Shown here: positions 36,296-62,288 of the stretch, piece by piece | Layout of the letters: each line of letters opens with the position of its first letter | Position numbering within the stretch: the first letter of the stretch is position 1 | Assembly (NCBI RefSeq): GCF_001707915.1 | Contig: NZ_MAVV01000005.1 | Span: 1 to 62,310 of the forward strand | DNA length: 62,310 nt | Reading direction: 5' to 3' | Source: Thermodesulfovibrio sp. N1 | Lineage (GTDB): Bacteria > Nitrospirota > Thermodesulfovibrionia > Thermodesulfovibrionales > Thermodesulfovibrionaceae | The notes under the pieces: model-generated | Seen by the model: the letters and a program-made list of their open reading frames with translations, nothing else | Databases searched by the model: none | Told to the model about the DNA's origin: nothing | Translations under genes and position numbers: made by a program

Positions 36296-36590
36296 ATATC
36301 CATAGGAATATAAAATTACAAAAAAAACCTATTACTGTTATTAATATGAGCAAAATCGCAGTTAAGGGATCACTCATTAAACCAAAATTTAAATTTATAG
36401 GAAGCCATTTAAATAAGTAAAAATCATAATGGACTTTAAAACTGCTAAATAAACTAAAAATACTAAATAACATAGTTAAAAAAGCAAAAATTGCTGCAAT
36501 AATTCCAGCAACCCTGTTTTTAAATAAATAGGATATTAAAGCGCCTAAAAAAGGTATGATAAGGGATAGAAGTAAATAATCCATAATCAT
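36282..36590 (-). CDS. Third antiporter-like subunit, N-terminal part of the frameshifted gene
   Basis: 102 codons holding the first three membrane helices of a NuoL/MrpD-type subunit, ending SDPLTAILLILITVIGFF before the frame is lost at the A8 run. The remaining residues (CNFIFLWIYVSI) are out-of-frame. Overlaps the ferredoxin-like gene by four bases at its start, so the 5' end is genuine. Read with 35138-36295 as one gene. Confidence 0.8.
   Translation of the reverse strand: MIMDYLLLSLIIPFLGALISYLFKNRVAGIIAAIFAFLTMLFSIFSLFSSFKVHYDFYLFKWLPINLNFGLMSDPLTAILLILITVIGFFCNFIFLWIYVSI
36320..36327 (-). other. Homopolymer frameshift site in the hydrogenase antiporter gene
   Basis: Eight As on the plus strand (eight Ts in the mRNA sense). 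Seven would restore a normal NuoL/MrpD N-terminus across the two frames. Confidence 0.8.
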
Positions 36591-53164: not shown

Positions 53165-53509
53165 TCATTTTCGCCAATACATCACTGATTTGTATTGCCC
53201 TTTTTCTTTAAAAGATATTCTATCACTGTGTGAAAGAATTGAAATAACGCACAAAGATGCCTCACTAAATATATTCCCTCCATAAGAAACACTTTCTTCG
53301 CATTCAATATCATCTATGTGGATTAATCCTTCTATAGACTTAGCTGTATAGGCAAGCTTTAACCTCTGTGCCTCTTCCCATGTAACACCTCCAAAGGACT
53401 TTATGGTCCTCTGTTTTACTTTTCCCTTTTCTCTGTAACTTTTAACAATATCAGCAGTGTAATAGGTCTTACCTTTTACAGTCTTTTTAGAGATTTTGAA
53501 TGTTCCTTT
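53165..53509 (-). pseudogene. Transposase N-terminal remnant (IS1634/IS4-like)
   Basis: An open frame of about 114 codons with no proper start; a stop lies directly before KKGTFKISKK. It contains SKKTVKGKTYYTADIVKSYR and KVKQRTIKSFGGVTWEEAQR, which resemble the N-terminal part of IS1634-type transposases. The catalytic DDE domain is absent. The remnant is flanked by a 9-base direct repeat, CGCCAATAC (53172-53180 and 53515-53523). Family assignment is by eye only. Confidence 0.55.
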
Positions 53510-53523
53510 TTATACGCCAATAC
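53172..53523. repeat. 9-bp direct repeats flanking the transposase remnant
   Basis: CGCCAATAC at 53172-53180 and 53515-53523, with a one-mismatch copy CGCCATTAC at 53582-53590. Possible target-site duplication or deletion scar around the transposase fragment. Confidence 0.4.
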
Positions 53524-53641
53524 TTATAACATAGAATAAATAATTTTGTGAAGGAAGAAATGACTTATATCAAAAAATATTCGCCATTACACAGAAAAAT
53601 AAAAAATTAATTATTTCAATAAGTGAGGGGCAAAAGTTTAG

Positions 53642-53830
53642 AAAGATGGGTTTAGAAATAAAAAATCACATCAAATAAAATCAAGGGTTTACGAGTGCAA
53701 TTTGTCAATTTTTAAGCCTAAGTTGATAAACTCGGGAAAAGTAATATATGGCTGGCATGATAACGAACTTGGAAGTTATACAAAAATGTTTGGAGATTTA
53801 ACAGTTAAGATATCCCAAGATATTTATTAA
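53642..53830 (+). pseudogene. C-terminal remnant of a glyceraldehyde-3-phosphate dehydrogenase gene
   Basis: A 62-codon open tail, bounded upstream by TAG and ending TAA at 53830. VIYGWHDNELGSYTKMFGDL resembles the conserved GAPDH C-terminus (WYDNEwG...). No catalytic cysteine or NAD domain is present in the window, and the sequence upstream is degenerate. Likely debris from a rearrangement that also left the transposase fragment. Confidence 0.5.
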
Positions 53831-53832
53831 GG

Positions 53833-56412
53833 TTATTTGATTATATTGCTTTCTATGATATCAATTGAGAGAGGTTTTGAAAGAAGAAAACCCTGAACCA
53901 AGTCACAACCAAGGAATTTTAAGATATTAAGTTGTTCTTCTTTTTCAACTCCTTCAGCAAGGGTGAGTTTGTCAAGTCTTTTTGCAAGCTCTATTATTGT
54001 TTGAACAACAGCAAAGGATTTTTTATCTTTTAATATGTCTCTTATGAAAGCAATATCAATCTTTATAATATCTATTGGTAAATCCTTAAGATAAACAAGA
54101 GAAGAAAAACCTGTGCCAAAATCATCCATTGCAATTTTGGGGGGATTTTTCATTTTTTTAATCATTGAAATTAAATCCATTACATGATCCGGATTTTCAA
54201 TAAATACTCTTTCTGTAATCTCAATTGTGACTTTATCCCTTATTTCTTCTGGAATGCGAGATATTTTTTGGATAAAATTTGCATCATTAAAAGTTTTTCC
54301 TGAAATATTTATTGAAATATTAATCCTCCATTTCCTTATTTTTTCAATTGTTTCTTTGATTAAGAAATCTTCAAATTTATTTAAATATTGGCTATTTTCT
54401 ATGTAGTTAATAAAGGAATTCGGATAATAAATTTTGCCTTTATCAATTATTCTAACTAAAGCTTCAAAACCTGCTACTTTCAAAGTATCAGTATGGTAGT
54501 AAGGTTGATAATAAAATACAAAAAGATTTTCATCAAAGGCTTTTCTAACCAGATTGATTATTTCCCATTGGCTTTCTACATCTTTTTCAATTACTGGGTC
54601 ATAAAATTTAATTACTCCTTCACCTTCATTCTTTGCCTTAGTAAGAGTTATGTCAGCTTTTTCATATAAAGACTTAAATGTTGTTCCATCTTTTGGAAAT
54701 AAAACTATGCCTGCATTAATGTTGGTACTTACTGTTTTATTTTCTATTTCAAATTTAAAATCATTAAGTTCTAAAATTTTTTGATAAACACTATAACTCT
54801 CAATTGAACTATCAATCATAACATATACTCCAAAGGTGTCAGCACTTATTCTGGCAACGGCATCTGTACCTTTAAAGTTTTCACTTAAATTTTTAGCAAA
54901 GGATTGCAGGAATCTGTCGCCCCCTGAAAATCCTAAAATTTTATTTATCCCTGTCATATTACATAAATCTATTAATAGGAATACTCCTATAAGTCCCTTT
55001 GCCTGGGTTTCTCTCAATTTAACGGAGACATCGGCAGAAAATCCATTTAAATTTAAAAGTCCTGTTAGGGCATCATAGTTTTGTAATTTATTTATTCTTT
55101 CGGAAAGCACTAATTTTTCTGTAATATCCTTTGCAACAGCAACAAATCTTAAGATATTTCCAGGAAGTCTGATAGGTATAATTTTTAAGTCAACATGAAA
55201 AATCTCTCCATTCTTTTTTCTGTTTGGTATTATGGCATTGAATATTTTTTCTGAAAGAATGGTATCCCACATTTCTTTATAAAATTCTGGTGGATTAAGT
55301 CCTGATTTAAATATTCTTGGATTATGCCCAATCAACTCTTCTTTTTTGTATCCGCTTATTTTTTCTACAGCTTCATTTACATAAGTAATATTACCTTTTT
55401 CATCGGTAACTAAAATCCATGTATCAGAGTTTTTAATTGCCTCTGAAATGATAGTGTTATGCCTTATCCTTTCAACTCTTTCAAGGGCAAAAGAGAGGTC
55501 TCTTTGAATTTCTTGTAGTATATCAGCAATCGATTCTGTGAAATAATTTGGAAACTCTGAATAGATACTTATCGAAGACACAATTTTTTTATTTTTAAAA
55601 AGAGGAATTACACAAGATGACAAAACTCCTCTTTTTAAAAGTTCTAATCTTATGGGATTTTTATCGGTATCTTTTCTTAAATCGGAATTAATTAATATCT
55701 TTTTTTCTTGTAATAATTTATCGCATTTATGTTCTGATTCACTAAGGAATTTTATGAATTCATGATCACCATAGTGAAATTTAGGAATTCTCTTTCCATA
55801 TTCATCAATTAATCCAATCCATACAAATTTAAATTTAAGATTTTCAACTAAAGCTTTACATATTCCGCTATATATTTCCTCTTCAGTTAATGACATTGTT
55901 ATGATTTTATTAATTTCTTTTAAAATTTCTTTTACACTTTCAGCGTGCTTTTGTTGGGTTATGTCATAAAAGATAACGCAGCCTGAATATCTACCTTTAA
56001 AAAGTATAGTTGATGTGAAACATTTAACATGTATTATCTCTCCACCTTTTTTTACAAAACGAATATCATAGATTGAAGAAAATTTTTTTCCTGATAGTCT
56101 TCTTTTTAAATTTTCAATTACTTTTTCTTTGTCCTCCTTATAAACTAAATCTATACTATTCATTTCAAGGATTTCCTCTTCTTCATATCCAAGAAGATTT
56201 AAAGCATATTCATTTATAAATACTATTTTCTCTTGATAAATAAACATACCAATAGTTGATGATTTCATCAGAGCCTTAGTGATATCATGATAAGCCCATT
56301 CTTCAAGTAAGATTTCTAACTGTTCGTAAAGACTTTTAATATATTGAATTTCCTCTTCTGATGCTTTATCAATATCCTCAATATTAAGCAATTTTTCCTT
56401 ATATTCCCTCAA
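53833..56412 (-). CDS. PAS-GAF-PAS-GGDEF-EAL cyclic-di-GMP protein (C-terminal part of a longer sensor)
   Basis: 859 codons from a TTG; the frame is open a further 22 codons upstream into the end of the PhnD-like gene. Domains: PAS (about 45-155), GAF (about 165-310), PAS (about 320-435), GGDEF-like (about 440-600), EAL (about 615-855). The GGDEF signature is degenerate (RISADTF), so cyclase activity is unlikely. The EAL domain keeps FEALVRI, DDFGTGFSSL and AEGVEKEEQ, so it probably degrades c-di-GMP. No membrane segment. Last gene after the ODP and chemoreceptor genes. Confidence 0.85.
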   Translation of the reverse strand: MREYKEKLLNIEDIDKASEEEIQYIKSLYEQLEILLEEWAYHDITKALMKSSTIGMFIYQEKIVFINEYALNLLGYEEEEILEMNSIDLVYKEDKEKVIENLKRRLSGKKFSSIYDIRFVKKGGEIIHVKCFTSTILFKGRYSGCVIFYDITQQKHAESVKEILKEINKIITMSLTEEEIYSGICKALVENLKFKFVWIGLIDEYGKRIPKFHYGDHEFIKFLSESEHKCDKLLQEKKILINSDLRKDTDKNPIRLELLKRGVLSSCVIPLFKNKKIVSSISIYSEFPNYFTESIADILQEIQRDLSFALERVERIRHNTIISEAIKNSDTWILVTDEKGNITYVNEAVEKISGYKKEELIGHNPRIFKSGLNPPEFYKEMWDTILSEKIFNAIIPNRKKNGEIFHVDLKIIPIRLPGNILRFVAVAKDITEKLVLSERINKLQNYDALTGLLNLNGFSADVSVKLRETQAKGLIGVFLLIDLCNMTGINKILGFSGGDRFLQSFAKNLSENFKGTDAVARISADTFGVYVMIDSSIESYSVYQKILELNDFKFEIENKTVSTNINAGIVLFPKDGTTFKSLYEKADITLTKAKNEGEGVIKFYDPVIEKDVESQWEIINLVRKAFDENLFVFYYQPYYHTDTLKVAGFEALVRIIDKGKIYYPNSFINYIENSQYLNKFEDFLIKETIEKIRKWRINISINISGKTFNDANFIQKISRIPEEIRDKVTIEITERVFIENPDHVMDLISMIKKMKNPPKIAMDDFGTGFSSLVYLKDLPIDIIKIDIAFIRDILKDKKSFAVVQTIIELAKRLDKLTLAEGVEKEEQLNILKFLGCDLVQGFLLSKPLSIDIIESNIIK

Positions 56413-56468
56413 TGATGGATGAATAAAGATAAAGTGAGGGCAAGGGAAACAGAAATCCTCTGAAAATT

Positions 56469-56963
56469 TTATATTTTTTCATCTTCCAGTTCTCTTAGAT
56501 TTGATGTATATATAAACCCAAAATCTGCAATTCCCTTTTTAACAAGGTCTATTATCTCCTCATAATTTTTAGCAAAAATAAGATGAAAATTTTTGTATTT
56601 TTTTTTATAAAGTAAAAGAGGAATAAGAAAGTATTTACTGTTGATTAAAGCTATATTTATTAGCTCCTTTTTTGAAGAATAAGACAATGAAGTAATGCTA
56701 CACAAAGAATTTATATCATTTTTAAGTTTACCAAGGAGTATATAACCTTTTTCCCAAAGTTTCAAGGAAGTATCAGGATTTGCATAAACAATATGATAAT
56801 CAAACTCAGTAATTTTTTCCTCTTCTACAAAGTCTTTAAATAAAACAATGTTAACCTCTTTTTTAAGGATTGAAGATATAGAATAAACAATATTCTCCCA
56901 TTGTTTAATATCCCTTTCACTGCAGTGAAGGCAAAAGGCAAAATTTAATACATTATTCTGCAT
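56469..56963 (-). CDS. PhnD-like periplasmic-binding-type domain, N-terminal part of the frameshifted sensor
   Basis: 164 codons. The pattern of a phosphonate-binding (PhnD) two-lobe domain is recognisable (SILKKEVNIVLFKDFVEEEK, YANPDTSLKLWEKGYILLG, IIDLVKKGIADFGFIYTS), but there is no signal peptide, so it is cytoplasmic. The frame stops after ELEDEKI at an A6 run. Adding one A continues as KNIKFSEDFCFPCPHFIFIHPSL, the expected end of a PhnD domain, and runs straight into the PAS-GAF-PAS-GGDEF-EAL frame. Start overlaps nothing; the chemoreceptor gene ends four bases upstream. Confidence 0.7.
   Translation of the reverse strand: MQNNVLNFAFCLHCSERDIKQWENIVYSISSILKKEVNIVLFKDFVEEEKITEFDYHIVYANPDTSLKLWEKGYILLGKLKNDINSLCSITSLSYSSKKELINIALINSKYFLIPLLLYKKKYKNFHLIFAKNYEEIIDLVKKGIADFGFIYTSNLRELEDEKI
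56474..56479 (-). other. Homopolymer frameshift site joining PhnD-like and PAS/EAL frames
   Basis: Six Ts on the plus strand (A6 in the mRNA sense). A seventh would give one protein of about 1,045 residues from 56963 to 53833. Confidence 0.65.
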
Positions 56964-56967
56964 AAGT

Positions 56968-57843
56968 TTAAAATTTAGTTATCTTTGCAATTTCATCATT
57001 AACTTTTACAACTGTAGAGAAAACCTTATATGTTTCATTGAGCATGGAGGCGGTGTTTGTAATTCTCTTAGAAACATCAGTTAATACCTGACTTTGTTCT
57101 TCTATTGCTGTTGAAAGAGTATTTACCGCATCACCAACTGTATCTGACATGGTTTTGTTTTTTTCAAAGGATATTCTTATTGTTTTCATTTCTTCTTCAA
57201 TTTCAGAAAAAAGCTCTTTAATTTTTTCTACTTCCTTTACTGCTATAATTACTCTTTCACTTAGATTACCAAGAATTTTCCCAATATCTTTTGTTAAGAC
57301 ATCAGTTTTTTGCGCAAGCTTTCTTATTTCATCTGCCACAACAGCAAAGCCTCTACCAGCCTCTCCTACCCTTGCTGCTTCAATAGATGCATTCAAGGCA
57401 AGAAGATTTGTCTGGTCAGCAACATCAGAAATAGCAGTAACAATATTTCCAATGTTTTTTGTTGCATCACCAAGATCTTTTATATTTGTTACAACCTCTA
57501 TTATTTTTTCATTATGAGATTCAATCTCTTTAACTTTTTTTTCAAGTTCCTCATCCATTGTCTCATTTTGTTTAACAAGTGCTTGAACTTCATTGTTTAT
57601 AGAAACTACACTTTTTGACATATCCCTAATAGTGGTGTCAATTTCTTCCATGGCAGTTGCTATTGAGGAAACTTCATCTTTAATTCTTGAAAAATTTGAA
57701 TCAATTAAACCCATTGTATTTGAAATTGTGGAACCTACAATGTTTGACTTTATTATTCCTGATGAAAGAGTTTTGATAAGTGAAAGATTGGTATCTACAT
57801 CTTTTTTTGTAAGATTTGTATTTCTCTTTTTTCTAAAAAACAT
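56968..57843 (-). CDS. Soluble methyl-accepting chemotaxis protein (signalling domain only)
   Basis: 291 residues with no membrane helix and no separate sensor domain. The long coiled coil carries the highly conserved hairpin tip [34 protein letters not shown] at about residues 142-175. GGAGG ribosome site seven bases upstream. It starts 11 bases after an ODP-type di-iron protein gene, which is the presumed sensor that docks to it, as described for Treponema ODP and its soluble chemoreceptor. Output would be a CheA or c-di-GMP pathway. Confidence 0.92.
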
Positions 57844-57854
57844 TTTATTCCTCC

Positions 57855-58643
57855 CTATTTGTAGAATTCATCAGCTATATCAACACCACATCTTAGGTTA
57901 CCAAGCCAATTAAAAAATCTCTGAATATGTTCTTTTTTATGAATCATTGCACCATGTTGTGGAGCTATTCTTTCAATATCAAGCCTTTTGATTTTTTCAA
58001 GATATTTCTTCACTATACTATTTGAAGCAAGATATCTTCTGTGAAATCCCTCCATAAGCCTTATATGACTATCAAAATCCTCAACATAGGGATACCTCTG
58101 TCCCTTTGGAAAAATTGCTGCTCCTAAGTCACCTGTAAAAAGAGTCTTTGAACGAGGGTCATAAACATGAAAATTAGCAACAGAATGTAGAAAATGAGCT
58201 GGTATTATCTCAAGATAGTCTCCTGATGGAAGTTGAATTCTTCCACCTCCTTCTTCCAAAGGAACAATTCTTGTCATATCAAAAATTCCGTAATGAGGTA
58301 AAAATCTTACCCACCATTTTGATATATAAACCTTCGCAGGTGTTACACTGAGCCACAGTGCTACACCTGAGGATACATCTGGGTCTTGATGTGAGAAAAA
58401 TAGATGTTGAATTCTTTCAAGGTCAACATATCTTGAAACATTTGCAACAACTCTTGGAAAAACATGAACACCACCGGGGTCAAGAATAACGCCAACATTT
58501 TTATTTTCAATGAGATACTGGTTTACCTGAACAAGCCCTTCTTCTTCATGCTCTTCCCAACCAAGCCATATAAATTTATGAGTTCCATCGTCATAAACAA
58601 CATCTCCTCTTACAATGTCTACTTCTTTGTTTAATTTTGCCAT
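57855..58643 (-). CDS. ODP-type di-iron metallo-beta-lactamase-fold protein (oxygen/iron sensor candidate)
   Basis: 262 residues, full length for a stand-alone MBL domain related to flavodi-iron proteins but without a flavodoxin domain. Metal ligands by family pattern: His85, Asp87 and Asp89 ([10 protein letters not shown]), His153 ([15 protein letters not shown]), Asp172 (LFTGDLGAA) and His230 (PQHGAMI). ODP in Treponema binds O2 at its di-iron site and controls a soluble chemoreceptor; here the next gene is such a receptor. First gene of the sensory cluster. A reductase or hydrolase role remains possible. Confidence 0.88.
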
Positions 58644-58709
58644 ATTACCTCCAATTTATAATTTTTCTAATATTAGAATTTTACAAAAAAATAAAAATAG
58701 CTTGCAATT

Positions 58710-59006
58710 TTACTTCAAAAGCTGTTTATTCCTGAATGCTTTAAACATGTTTGAATGATGAAATGATCGCCTGTCCATTTTCACAATATGACATACTTCA
58801 CACCTCATTTCTGCTCCAATTGGAAGAGGTGCTCCTTGATACTGCAATGGTTGAATATTATCCCTATTCTTATCAAATTCATTGAAAGCAGGATAAACTG
58901 CATGGGGTGAACTATGGCAGGCAATACAGGGAATCTTACCAGTATTGTCAAATCTCATTCTATATAGCATATTAAAATTTTCAGTCCATATATTGAAAGC
59001 TCTCAT
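58710..59006 (-). CDS. C-terminal haem region of the CydA-like cytochrome, split off by a frameshift
   Basis: 98 codons from an internal Met. The frame is open further upstream, through CLNCHRGFQKPEK and INPRKPWINEPD, to the G5 run at 59094, and has no start of its own. It carries CIACH and CEVCH, plus CLNCH in the upstream extension, so three haem c sites. With one C fewer in the C5 run (mRNA sense), it becomes the tail of the 59056-61365 protein. Confidence 0.75.
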   Translation of the reverse strand: MRAFNIWTENFNMLYRMRFDNTGKIPCIACHSSPHAVYPAFNEFDKNRDNIQPLQYQGAPLPIGAEMRCEVCHIVKMDRRSFHHSNMFKAFRNKQLLK

Positions 59007-59055
59007 ATTTTTTTCAGGCTTCTGAAATCCTCTGTGGCAGTTTAAACAGTCTGGT

Positions 59056-61365
59056 TCATTTATCCAGGGTTTCCTTGGATTTATTTGGTAAATGGGGGTT
59101 TCTTGGATTAAGATTTTTTAAGAGAAGTTTTGCTGTTCGTGAATTTTCCTGTCCAAGCAATAGGGATACAGCATGTTCATCAAGTTTTCCATGACAGTGA
59201 GTACAGTTTATTCCAATTTTCACATGAATATCTCTGTTAAATCTTGTATTGCCCTTTGGATGGCTTGAATGACATAAAGCACAGGCTCTTTCATCTTTAA
59301 AGGGTATATAATTGGCATGAAATCCATGCATTGAAACTGAAAAGCTATTATGTCCCTTAATTCCCTTTGATTTTACTATGAAATCTTCATGACAGCTTTG
59401 ACATAGCATAGGCTTATCTTTAATAGCTGATTCATAAAGTTTTGTCTTATGTTTTCTATCGTGAAGTTTGAGAATGTTTTTTGCTGTTTCGTCAGAAATA
59501 CCAGATATGTCATTCCATCGCCATCCACCTTCATGACACATCCAACATCTCATCTCTGTTGCTACAGGAGCAACAACCCTTGTTTTCTGCAAAATCTTGC
59601 CAGTACTTTTATCCTTTGCAATCACCTCAAAAATCGGATAGGGATTGTAAACACCGTCATCTCTATATGGAAGAATCGGTAATCCCTCTGCCTTAAATAC
59701 TCCCCTCTCTTTGTCAAAATCAAAAGCACCCTTTAATCCTTTACCAGTAAGTCCCGTATCTTTTGAGACTTTTTTACCATAATTATATTCAACATAATTC
59801 CAAAATAGCGTGTGTTTTGAAGGATTTTCAAAGCCTTTTTCAACAGCATAAGCAATTTCAATATTATCTGTAACAATTTCGGGTTTTTTCCCTCTCTTTA
59901 TTAGTAATGCTTCAAGATTATTGCCAGGAGGTAAATAGGCAAACCATTTGTCAGCATCACTTACACATTTCATTCCAAGAGTATTCCATACAAGAAGAAC
60001 ATATTGATTAGAAGATTTAAATTCAGGAATCTCAGAGGTTAATTTTGTAATTTTATCATCAATTGGAGGTATTGTAGCTTCTTTTCCATGTAATCCCTTA
60101 ACAATAAATGTTGCAAGGGCTTCCATCTCCTTTTTTGTTCCTATAAACCTTGGCATGTAATCGCGAACCTTTCCCTGACCATAAAGCTGAGATAGTACAC
60201 CAAGATAGGTAAATCCCTTAGTTTTTTCAACAATATCGTTTTTTACTCCTCTAATGCTATGACAGCTTAGACACTGAAGATTAAAAAGTTCCCGTCCAGC
60301 TTCAATTTTGTTTTCTTCAGTTACTTCTTTTATCTTTGACCATTTTGAATGTTTTAGAAAACCTTCTTTATTCAACATTTCTTCATCTTTAACTAAAACT
60401 GATGGAGAGTACATATATCCGTAAATAACATAGGGTTTTCTCGCATACTCTCTCATATATTCAAAGCCTCCAATCCATGAAAGACCAATTAATAAAAGAA
60501 CGAATACTAAGAATTGTTGAAATCTTCTTGACGTTTTAATTATGAAAAGAATTGTCAGAAGAAAAAGCAATACTGATGAAATCACAAAGACATTGACAGC
60601 ATTAGCTGTTTGTTTATTCAACCAGAAATTGGTTATTCTTGCATTTTCTGGAATTGAGTAAAAATACCAGAATCCTGAAATCAAAATAAATGGTAAAGGC
60701 ATGTAAAGCCACCTTGCACAGTATTTAAGAAGTTTTTTTCTGAAATCACTCTGAGGCATAAACACAGCTGTAACAAATCCGAAAAGACCTGCAAACATAA
60801 GGCAAATTCCTGTTCTAAAAACAAGACTTGGCAGATTTGTAGGATTGAAAAATCCATCCCAGAAGTTCTGAGTCTCAAGCCACTGTCCCGGAGTAAGCAT
60901 GAAAGTAATAATTCCATTGATAACAAAAAGACTTAGCCAAGCTGAAAGAGCATATATAAAAGCAACTCTAAGTCTAAATTTATCTGAAAGTCCATCAAAT
61001 TTATAGTGATATATCAAAAGAGCGATAATTTCAACAATGAAAAAGACCCATTCTATTGCCCAAGCAAACACAAAGGTGTGAATCAGAATTGAAGTTGCCC
61101 AAGGACTTGAAAGAGCAATGGTAAACCATATTCCAACTCCTGTTACAGCACCAAAAACCATTGTAAGAAGCAAGAAAAACCATATGTGTTTACGAACATA
61201 AAGCCGTAGTTCCTGATTGTTTTCTCTTACACTTTTTAAATCAGTAAGCCATAAAAATATTCCACCACCCACTGCAAAGTGAGATACAAATACATGTAGC
61301 ACAGCAATTATGGCAATTAAAGTTCCAGAATTAAGATAGTAAAGTTCCCAAACTGGATAATTCAT
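59056..61365 (-). CDS. CydA-like membrane protein fused to a multihaem cytochrome c (3' end frameshifted)
   Basis: 769 codons. The N-terminal ~300 residues hold about eight to nine helices resembling cytochrome bd subunit I (LHVFVSHFAVGGGIFLWLTD with likely haem histidines; EYMREYARKPYVIYG, matching the bd GRQPWxxYG region). Five haem c motifs follow: CLSCH 365-369, CWMCH 607-611, CQSCH 655-659, CALCH 695-699 and CTHCH 721-725. Three more lie in the out-of-frame tail (58710-59092). Probably quinol oxidation linked to periplasmic haem transfer. Overlaps its membrane partner by four bases. Confidence 0.85.
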   Translation of the reverse strand: MNYPVWELYYLNSGTLIAIIAVLHVFVSHFAVGGGIFLWLTDLKSVRENNQELRLYVRKHIWFFLLLTMVFGAVTGVGIWFTIALSSPWATSILIHTFVFAWAIEWVFFIVEIIALLIYHYKFDGLSDKFRLRVAFIYALSAWLSLFVINGIITFMLTPGQWLETQNFWDGFFNPTNLPSLVFRTGICLMFAGLFGFVTAVFMPQSDFRKKLLKYCARWLYMPLPFILISGFWYFYSIPENARITNFWLNKQTANAVNVFVISSVLLFLLTILFIIKTSRRFQQFLVFVLLLIGLSWIGGFEYMREYARKPYVIYGYMYSPSVLVKDEEMLNKEGFLKHSKWSKIKEVTEENKIEAGRELFNLQCLSCHSIRGVKNDIVEKTKGFTYLGVLSQLYGQGKVRDYMPRFIGTKKEMEALATFIVKGLHGKEATIPPIDDKITKLTSEIPEFKSSNQYVLLVWNTLGMKCVSDADKWFAYLPPGNNLEALLIKRGKKPEIVTDNIEIAYAVEKGFENPSKHTLFWNYVEYNYGKKVSKDTGLTGKGLKGAFDFDKERGVFKAEGLPILPYRDDGVYNPYPIFEVIAKDKSTGKILQKTRVVAPVATEMRCWMCHEGGWRWNDISGISDETAKNILKLHDRKHKTKLYESAIKDKPMLCQSCHEDFIVKSKGIKGHNSFSVSMHGFHANYIPFKDERACALCHSSHPKGNTRFNRDIHVKIGINCTHCHGKLDEHAVSLLLGQENSRTAKLLLKNLNPRNPHLPNKSKETLDK
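59094..59098 (-). other. Homopolymer frameshift site in the cytochrome gene
   Basis: Five Gs on the plus strand (C5 in the mRNA sense). Four would continue the cytochrome as NPRNPIYQINPRKPWINEPD and add three further CxxCH motifs before the stop at 58710. Confidence 0.65.
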
Positions 61366-62288
61366 CTTTTAACTCCCTTAGGAAAGGCGATCTTAAGCAT
61401 ATAAAAAATTACAGCTATACCCAAAATTAAAATAATAAGAAAGATAGCAAAGACATCCCATTGAGGAACAATATTTAATTGTGAGAGGCTAAAATGTTCT
61501 CCCAGTTGAAAAATTCTTAGGTGATATCGGTTTATCACCATAGCAATGAGAGTTATAGAAAGAAAAAGAACTGTTAAGCCTAATTTCCCCTTTAAACCTG
61601 CCAATATAGATAGAAATGCAAAAACTACTCCTATTATAAATATTATGGTAGCCAAAATATCAGCACCCATAAAATTAAGCATGATTTTCTTGGGAAGACT
61701 TAAAAGAAATAAAACACCAACAACGGCTTGAACCATTGTAGAATAGCTAAAAATTTTTAATCCCTCTTTAATCTTTATATTTCGTAAATTTTGATTTAAA
61801 TCTTTTTTGAATTTGTAATGGAGGCTATAAAACAATCCACCAATTGCCAAAGAAGCAACAAGAAAATGTAGATATCTTGGATATATGCTTATTTCATCCC
61901 AAAGTAAAATTGTTCCACTTCTGTTTTCAAAATATCTACTCCATTTTATTGGACTCTCCATTAATGAAAGATTATTAACCAGAATAAAGGAGATGTAAAG
62001 CATAATAAAAACAACAGCAAAAATTGTAAATTTTGCTAATTGAGAGGATTCAAATTTTTTGTAATGAATATAGGATGAATAATATCCAGCTATGAGCAAA
62101 GGAATAATTAAAATCCAGTATGTTCCAAGAAGCACTGAACTTGTATAAAAAAGATGCCCGAAAACAACCTGAAGAAACAAAAGAGCAGGTATAGCCATAT
62201 TAATTGCAAGGGCAAAAAGGACAGGTATTTGTTTTGAAAAAGGTTTATAAATATCTAAGTCTTGGGAAGAGATAGAGAGTAATCTCAT
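61362..62288 (-). CDS. Polytopic membrane partner of the CydA-like cytochrome (5' end may lie outside)
   Basis: 308 codons from ATG 62288, but the frame stays open to the right edge and an AGAGG sequence directly abuts this ATG, so the true start may be upstream. About eight membrane segments; LALAINMAIPALLFLQVVFG and HLFYTSSVLLGTYWI suggest a relative of the bd-oxidase subunit family. Overlaps the cytochrome gene by four bases, so the two are one complex by context. Function is not established from sequence alone. Confidence 0.7.
   Translation of the reverse strand: MRLLSISSQDLDIYKPFSKQIPVLFALAINMAIPALLFLQVVFGHLFYTSSVLLGTYWILIIPLLIAGYYSSYIHYKKFESSQLAKFTIFAVVFIMLYISFILVNNLSLMESPIKWSRYFENRSGTILLWDEISIYPRYLHFLVASLAIGGLFYSLHYKFKKDLNQNLRNIKIKEGLKIFSYSTMVQAVVGVLFLLSLPKKIMLNFMGADILATIIFIIGVVFAFLSILAGLKGKLGLTVLFLSITLIAMVINRYHLRIFQLGEHFSLSQLNIVPQWDVFAIFLIILILGIAVIFYMLKIAFPKGVKR

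Follow-up and report, generated by a model that had tools for sequence, protein, structure and literature searches.

A Treponema-type ODP–chemoreceptor pair with an adjoining predicted c-di-GMP phosphodiesterase in Thermodesulfovibrio

Thermodesulfovibrio is a hot-spring bacterium, and c-di-GMP is an attachment signal; a locus of Thermodesulfovibrio sp. N1 in which an ODP-type sensor, a chemoreceptor and a predicted c-di-GMP enzyme are encoded side by side raises the question of whether the three work together and of what each would sense. The locus lies on the reverse strand of the window, i.e., the whole stretch of DNA analysed (62,310 nucleotides of contig NZ_MAVV01000005.1). The reading preferred here, which is considered moderately probable, is that ODP and the chemoreceptor (MCP) would signal O2/Fe to CheA, and that a phosphodiesterase expressed along with them, and having a redox input of its own, would lower c-di-GMP, as a lineage-specific extension of the module.

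The ODP gene (57855–58643, reverse strand) encodes a 262-aa protein of the metallo-beta-lactamase (MBL) fold. In the Pfam search, it matches PF19583 with an E-value of 4.7e-75, covering profile positions 1–194 of 194, and the closest solved structures are the ODPs of T. denticola and T. maritima (6qrq, E 5e-101; 6qnm, E 4e-94). Alignment with these two structures gives H85, D87, D89, H150 or H153, D172 and H230 as putative metal ligands, an assignment based on what is known of the MBL/flavodiiron fold; the ligand columns are invariant among relatives, down to 41% identity. The first-pass annotation of this DNA, which had described a di-iron protein with all expected ligands, is borne out as regards the ligands.

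The MCP gene (56968–57843, reverse strand; 291 aa) follows ODP after 11 bp, and this gap is 9–12 bp across the genus, with 29 bp in one genome. The signalling domain matches PF00015 (Pfam search, E 1.2e-35), and neither a transmembrane segment nor a sensor domain was found by hydropathy and Pfam search, in agreement with the earlier description of a soluble chemoreceptor without a sensor; identity within the genus is 82–90%. A sensorless MCP adjoins ODP in 79 of the 80 nearest ODP loci, and the pairing extends over Spirochaetes, Thermotogae, Aquificales, Desulfurellales, Thermodesulfobacterium and Nitrospirota. Judged from sequence, ODP and MCP are the already described ODP-chemoreceptor system, a Treponema-type O2/Fe sensor–receptor pair as the first-pass annotation had proposed, with conserved ligands and a pairing that spans several phyla. 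The systems of T. denticola (TDE2498/TDE2496) and T. maritima (PMC7666581) likewise have the same ligand positions, an ODP beside a sensorless soluble MCP, and a flagellated host with CheA; the window differs in adding a third co-directional gene, a predicted c-di-GMP phosphodiesterase. Such systems are also treated in PMC7319448 and PMC6978683; the former mentions operons that combine ODP with further signalling genes. The genome of Thermodesulfovibrio sp. N1 itself encodes flagellin, CheW/CheA-type proteins and PilZ, with nine matches to PF01584, including CheA-sized frames of 752 and 876 aa. By analogy with the published homologues, the di-iron site would sense O2 and Fe(II), and the MCP would pass its output to CheA.

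A different function for ODP, as an O2- or NO-detoxifying enzyme and not a sensor, is highly improbable. The fold is common to flavodiiron proteins, and the gene upstream of ODP (58710–61365, reverse strand), possibly on the same transcript, encodes a fusion of a cytochrome bd-like subunit I with eight haem-c motifs; but the ODP protein lacks a partner domain of the flavodoxin or rubredoxin type, V replaces the second H of the flavodiiron motif HxExDH, as in the characterised ODPs, and the near-constant MCP partner also speaks against detoxification. Of the 13 same-genus genomes, 9 have the cytochrome bd-like gene next to ODP, as does a species of another family (G240); the gene has a frame break near 59100 in the window and is a single ORF of about 883 aa in relatives. 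For promoters and terminators, the site count at 53500–59200 was no higher than in shuffled DNA.

The third gene begins 4 bp behind MCP and is read in two frames, both on the reverse strand. The N-terminal part of a PhnD-type binding-protein domain (PF12974) forms a 164-aa ORF at 56469–56963, with its TAA stop past an A6 run; the C-terminal end of PhnD, followed by PAS1, GAF, PAS2, a degenerate GGDEF and EAL (Pfam), lies at 53833–56478 and is predicted to be a cytoplasmic c-di-GMP phosphodiesterase. The two frames meet at the A6 homopolymer (56474–56479), where the relatives' frame has one base more. The tight packing and the PAS/GAF/PAS/degenerate GGDEF/EAL series noted earlier are present; a single frame from PhnD to EAL is not, in this genome. 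In 10 relatives, the gene is a single ORF of 1030–1060 aa. Comparison with the relative G009 over about 27 kb of the window gave two more homopolymer frame breaks, so that this stretch of the draft genome has three, each next to a homopolymer run and one of them in a respiratory-type membrane gene. Because most relatives keep a single frame and two other such breaks lie nearby, an assembly error is the likeliest cause of the split. Programmed -1 frameshifting was also considered; slippage at the A6 run is conceivable, but the same two observations favour an error.

The frame break at 56474–56479 could also mean that the third gene is decaying in this organism and that only ODP–MCP works. Of the 13 genus genomes, 4 have the gene in broken or shortened form: beside a homopolymer in the window genome and in G008, by a 35-bp tandem duplication in the one-contig genome G002, and by absence of PhnD-PAS1-GAF in G012. 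Apart from an assembly gap in one MCP, no such damage affects ODP or MCP in any of the 13. The duplication in G002 counts in favour of decay. Against it, the homopolymer-side breaks, one in a respiratory-type gene, point to assembly errors, and the remaining PAS/EAL frame is open over 880 codons with a complete EAL domain, so that decay is very unlikely.

The Pfam E-values of the third gene are 1.4e-57 for EAL, 2.8e-25 for GGDEF, 1.2e-27 for PAS_9 and 3.3e-11 for GAF_2. The catalytic EAL set (EAL, N, E, DDFGTG, KID, E, Q) is complete in the window ORF and in relatives, and the GG(D/E)EF active-site motif is absent, with (S/A/G)AD(T/S)F in its place across the genus. Intact EAL motifs together with a degenerate GGDEF lead to the prediction of c-di-GMP breakdown made already in the first-pass annotation, and a predicted c-di-GMP phosphodiesterase is a sensible assignment for this protein.

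As to what the enzyme would sense, the first-pass annotation had named the PhnD domain. PF12974 matches the split ORF of the window alone at E 5e-4 (19.9 bits) and the intact 1045-aa protein of G009 at 29.8 bits, above the 27-bit cut-off. By sequence, the search against solved structures gave nothing beyond a weak match to ArrX over a short stretch, so the fold was taken from a model. The domain of a relative, modelled with AlphaFold (pLDDT 89), has a Z of 17.9 to PtxB (5o2j), which supports a PhnD-type fold. In the modelled fold, the domain resembles the periplasmic binding proteins PhnD, PtxB and ArrX (PF12974) with Z 16–18 over its whole length; unlike them, it is cytoplasmic, lacks a signal peptide and forms one protein with a phosphodiesterase; it is also shorter than they are by about 40 residues and only 9–16% identical to them. 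It is the least conserved and fastest-evolving part of the third gene (45% identity) and is missing in one species with a complete genome. On conservation, PhnD is rejected as the main sensor; in the window, it is moreover out of frame, and PAS2 is the part conserved instead. It is proposed that the PhnD-type domain would serve as a variable input that responds to a small anion or a comparable ligand.

PAS2 (55081–55440, reverse strand) is the best-conserved part of the phosphodiesterase, with 81% mean identity in the genus. The nearest solved structures are FAD-PAS domains: MmoS (3ewk), NifL (2gj3) and Aer (8dik). At the FAD-contact positions of Aer (PMC9668731), G28, M69, W70 and N85 are identical and R57 is replaced by K; PAS2 differs at two others, H53 being P and R115 being A. 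PAS2 is the conserved input of the phosphodiesterase and probably a redox sensor. Similarly, PA0285 of P. aeruginosa and other PAS-PAS-GGDEF-EAL phosphodiesterases have a FAD-like second PAS before GGDEF-EAL, yet PA0285 bound no FAD when assayed (PMC10874727); by that analogy, the FAD-like PAS2 may be empty. PA0285 is membrane-bound, whereas the phosphodiesterase of the window is predicted to be cytoplasmic.

The gene order, whose conservation the first-pass annotation had made decisive, is kept: the third gene lies directly behind MCP in 13 of 13 ODP-positive Thermodesulfovibrio genomes and in one further species (G240), with a gap of 1–4 bp in most carriers. EAL proteins are rare (two in the 1.9-Mb genome of strain N1; 1–4 per genome having any), so a 13/13 linkage to ODP–MCP is more than chance. 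Outside Thermodesulfovibrio and G240, the third gene was absent beside ODP–MCP in all lineages looked at, and the close relatives G026, G037 and G046 keep ODP–MCP without it; it is a lineage-specific part of the locus, on sequence grounds restricted to the genus plus one relative. Genus identity is 86% for ODP and MCP versus 59% for the phosphodiesterase, which points to looser constraint on the latter and, like its broken or shortened copies and its lack in those relatives, weighs against the preferred reading; all parts are under purifying selection (median dN/dS 0.05–0.25).

These figures bear on the view that the third gene is an independent redox- or ligand-regulated phosphodiesterase that shares the operon without any functional tie to ODP–MCP. 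Its absence from other lineages, its looser conservation with parts lost in some genomes, and its own PAS/GAF/PhnD inputs all fit such independence. Within the genus, however, the third gene and ODP are strictly found together (both are missing from G004, a Thermodesulfovibrio genome that is 99% complete), the gap behind MCP stays constant and short, and G240, which belongs to another family, has the three-gene cluster too, down to the gene upstream of it. These points argue against independence, which is regarded as quite unlikely.

At the other extreme, and as the strong version of the first-pass proposal, ODP or MCP could physically control the phosphodiesterase, so that O2/iron at ODP would set both CheA output and c-di-GMP. 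This would agree with the conserved gene order and near-overlapping spacing, and with a PAS2 conservation close to the ODP/MCP level, as expected for an interaction surface. There is also a precedent in P. aeruginosa Pch, which contains GAF, PAS, degenerate GGDEF and EAL and complexes with CheA (PMC3861689). Pch/DipA shares with the window protein the GAF and PAS inputs, the degenerate GGDEF and the active-type EAL (PMC3861689); Pch/DipA is a phosphodiesterase tied to the chemotaxis machine, and the window protein is likened to it by domain set only. The window protein differs from Pch/DipA in its added N-terminal PhnD domain. To our knowledge, Pch is not encoded with ODP or MCP. Against physical control, the phosphodiesterase lacks any domain for docking to the array (receiver, CheW or PilZ), it has sensor domains of its own, and outside PAS2 its rate of evolution is much higher than that of ODP and MCP; such a wired arrangement is unlikely, if worth serious thought. 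Aer of Azospirillum brasilense (PAS-MCP-PilZ, PMC6406031) also joins oxygen/redox taxis to c-di-GMP signalling, but it reads c-di-GMP via PilZ in one protein, whereas in the window a separate enzyme would destroy it.

A further observation favouring physical control comes from a separate, unrelated ODP clade in two other Nitrospirota families, in which ODP has a GGDEF-EAL protein as its direct partner and no MCP; the N-terminal 285 aa or so of these proteins have no Pfam match. ODP is thus tied to c-di-GMP at least twice and is plausibly able to act on c-di-GMP enzymes. A tentative proposal, possible though not favoured, is that ODP is a transferable O2/Fe module coupled two or more times to c-di-GMP enzymes, with ODP-MCP-phosphodiesterase as one array-associated unit and the direct two-gene pair elsewhere.

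In the preferred reading, of co-expression with separate inputs, the ODP di-iron site would sense O2 and Fe(II) and act on the adjoining sensorless MCP, which would feed the CheA array and steer swimming. The soluble phosphodiesterase of the same tight operon would lower c-di-GMP in response to inputs of its own, chiefly PAS2, which is conserved and probably senses redox state, plus the variable PhnD-type domain, and the combined output would favour swimming over attachment upon a change in O2, iron or redox state. The neighbourhood gives co-expression at most, and any functional coupling of ODP–MCP to the phosphodiesterase beyond this is putative. In the papers searchable, no matching system was found for ODP with c-di-GMP, PhnD with EAL, or an operon joining a soluble chemoreceptor to a phosphodiesterase. 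The first-pass remark that no system with this exact set is described holds to that extent, but not for its ODP–MCP core, which was reportedly published by Muok et al. in 2019 (PNAS).

Through a single locus, oxygen or iron could in this way influence whether the cell swims or settles. Were this so, chemotaxis and the c-di-GMP switch between swimming and attachment, two outputs that anaerobes usually wire separately, would be joined by one ancient di-iron sensor; under the transferable-module proposal, one iron-peroxo sensor would set swimming direction and c-di-GMP together. The ODP/GGDEF-EAL pair offers a simpler, two-protein setting for ODP control of c-di-GMP, and the locus allows a test of whether phosphodiesterases bound to the array, of which Pch is one, are a design that recurs or one confined to Pseudomonas.

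The ODP, MCP and phosphodiesterase genes are co-directional on the minus strand, with gaps of 11 bp between ODP and MCP and 4 bp between MCP and the third gene. The ODP (262 aa, 57855-58643, minus strand) is a full-length match to PF19583 (E 4.7e-75) and matches the solved ODPs of Treponema denticola and Thermotoga maritima with E values of 5e-101 and 4e-94, respectively; its putative metal-ligand positions H85, D87, D89, H150/H153, D172 and H230 are invariant down to relatives of 41% identity. The MCP (291 aa, 56968-57843, minus strand) is a cytoplasmic signalling domain by domain match, and hydropathy analysis found no transmembrane segment. The third gene carries PhnD, PAS1, GAF, PAS2, degenerate GGDEF and EAL domains; the domain list of the first-pass annotation is correct. 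The ODP-MCP core is the system already published by Muok et al. 2019 (doi 10.1073/pnas.1904234116). It has been reported that ODP binds iron and oxygen and signals via a cognate sensorless MCP, and that other ODPs occur in operons with, or fused to, other signalling genes (PMC7666581, PMC7319448, PMC6978683).

An MCP of about 290 aa lies downstream of ODP in 79 of the 80 nearest ODP loci from 84,980 species genomes, which span Spirochaetes, Thermotogae, Aquificales, Desulfurellales, Thermodesulfobacterium and Nitrospirota. At L046/L062 of genome G033, the ODP is 72% identical to that of the window, no MCP of about 290 aa lies directly behind it, and larger MCP genes are found upstream. Within the genus Thermodesulfovibrio, ODP is present in 13/16 genomes, and the proposed gene order is upheld in every one of them, with MCP and the third gene directly behind ODP (13/13) and gaps of 9-12 bp and 1-4 bp, respectively, in nearly all. 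ODP is missing from three genomes, two of them incomplete; the other, G004, at 99% completeness, lacks the phosphodiesterase gene as well. The full set recurs in another family in G240 (isolate SKW50), together with the same upstream cytochrome gene; G026, G037 and G046, from the family of G240, have ODP-MCP without the third gene.

The third gene had been annotated as a single protein, which does not hold for the window, where two reading frames are present: a 164-aa PhnD ORF (minus strand), ending at a TAA at 56469, and the remainder (53833-56478, minus strand) in a different frame. The junction is the A6 run GAAAAAATA (56474-56479, minus strand), and adding one A there joins the frames with the residue spacing of the relatives (ELEDEK-NIKFSED vs ELKNGKNIKISED), ten of which carry one uninterrupted ORF (1030-1060 aa). 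A comparison of about 27 kb of the window with G009, a genome in one contig, showed three genes split between frames: the third gene, the cytochrome gene upstream of ODP (near 59100) and a gene for a membrane subunit (near 36320). The last, a 485-aa gene on the minus strand that appears antiporter/NADH-dehydrogenase-like by eye, is split beside a T8 run at 36312-36325, which again hints at indel errors in the assembly. Because all three breaks adjoin homopolymers and the assembly is a 116-contig draft, the third-gene break is most likely an assembly or sequencing error.

All catalytic motifs of the EAL domain are intact, and across the genus a degraded form, (S/A/G)AD(T/S)F, stands in place of the GGDEF motif, so a phosphodiesterase rather than a cyclase is predicted. 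Full-length forms are soluble, with a maximum 19-residue hydropathy of 1.27-1.59. Mean pairwise identity within the genus is 86% for both ODP and MCP; in the third gene it is 45% for PhnD, 58% for PAS1, 51% for GAF, 81% for PAS2, 59% for GGDEF and 65% for EAL, and a second alignment gave the same uneven pattern. Median dN/dS is 0.05-0.25 across the parts, rough ratios because dS is near saturation. The one-contig genome G012 has, still behind ODP-MCP, a 556-aa form with only PAS2-GGDEF-EAL (L033:8647-10314), a natural deletion of PhnD-PAS1-GAF. The emphasis of the first-pass annotation on PhnD as the sensor is thus not borne out: PAS2, rather than PhnD, is the conserved input. In G002 (one contig, 2,003,803 bp), the phosphodiesterase gene is interrupted within GGDEF by a perfect tandem duplication of 35 bp (L034:10440-10510, ODP-forward orientation). 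Since the third gene is broken or shortened in 4/13 genomes and much less conserved than ODP-MCP, it may be a non-essential accessory.

The AlphaFold model of a relative's PhnD domain (pLDDT 89) has a PhnD/PtxB fold, and its best structural match is PtxB (5o2j, Z 17.9 over 216 residues), followed by HtxB, PhnD1, ArrX, E. coli PhnD and AioX. This group binds phosphite, hypophosphite, phosphonates or arsenic and phosphate oxyanions; the 45% identity within the genus suggests a variable ligand or a weakly constrained domain. Among solved structures, PAS2 is closest to the FAD-type redox PAS domains from MmoS, NifL and Aer. Of the FAD-contact positions described for Aer (PMC9668731), mapped by constant spacing, G28, M69, W70 and N85 are unchanged in every row of the alignment, and R57, H53 and R115 are replaced by K, P and A, respectively. 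It is plausible that PAS2 carries flavin; the similar-looking PAS of PA0285 bound no FAD (PMC10874727).

A second link between ODP and c-di-GMP was found in seven genomes of family f3, in the same order, and in four of genus g109 (family f30), where ODP is directly followed, without MCP, by a ~700-aa protein whose N-terminus is unannotated and which carries an EAL domain and an intact GGDEF; the genes mostly overlap by 1 to 18 bp, and one copy, in G137, is split. Such pairs are seen at L047, L048, L049 and L161-L169, in two Nitrospirota families, and the N-terminal ~285 aa of these proteins gave no Pfam match. Their ODPs group in a separate clade (100/100), distinct from those of Thermodesulfovibrio, which nest within ODP-MCP lineages; ODP has thus become linked with c-di-GMP enzymes on at least two occasions. 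As genomes beyond Nitrospirota were sampled only via the 80 nearest ODPs, other such pairings may exist, and the supplement to Muok et al. 2019 may already include them.

By analogy with homologues, ODP-MCP would report O2/Fe to the CheA array, and the co-encoded phosphodiesterase, judging from motifs and conservation, would lower c-di-GMP, with PAS2, of redox type, and a variable PhnD domain as its own inputs. The genome encodes flagellin, CheA/CheW-type proteins, PilZ receptors and only two EAL proteins, so this phosphodiesterase should make a difference to the c-di-GMP pool. Gene order alone indicates co-expression at best; the strong form of the original claim, in which ODP or MCP would act directly on the phosphodiesterase, is plausible. 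The nearest precedent for such contact is Pch of P. aeruginosa, a phosphodiesterase complexed with CheA (PMC3861689). A redox chemoreceptor of Azospirillum has a PilZ domain for c-di-GMP within the receptor itself (PMC6406031). The region upstream of ODP (58710-62288, minus strand) encodes a membrane protein of 308 aa and a fusion of a cytochrome bd-like subunit I with eight CxxCH haem motifs. The cytochrome gene, one ORF of about 883 aa in relatives, neighbours ODP in 9/13 genomes of the genus as well as in G240; the operon may therefore include an enzyme active on O2 or NO. Overall, the cluster is real and conserved, and it extends a known sensor module in a lineage-specific way: the ODP-MCP core was already known, and the third gene is the addition of Thermodesulfovibrio and G240.
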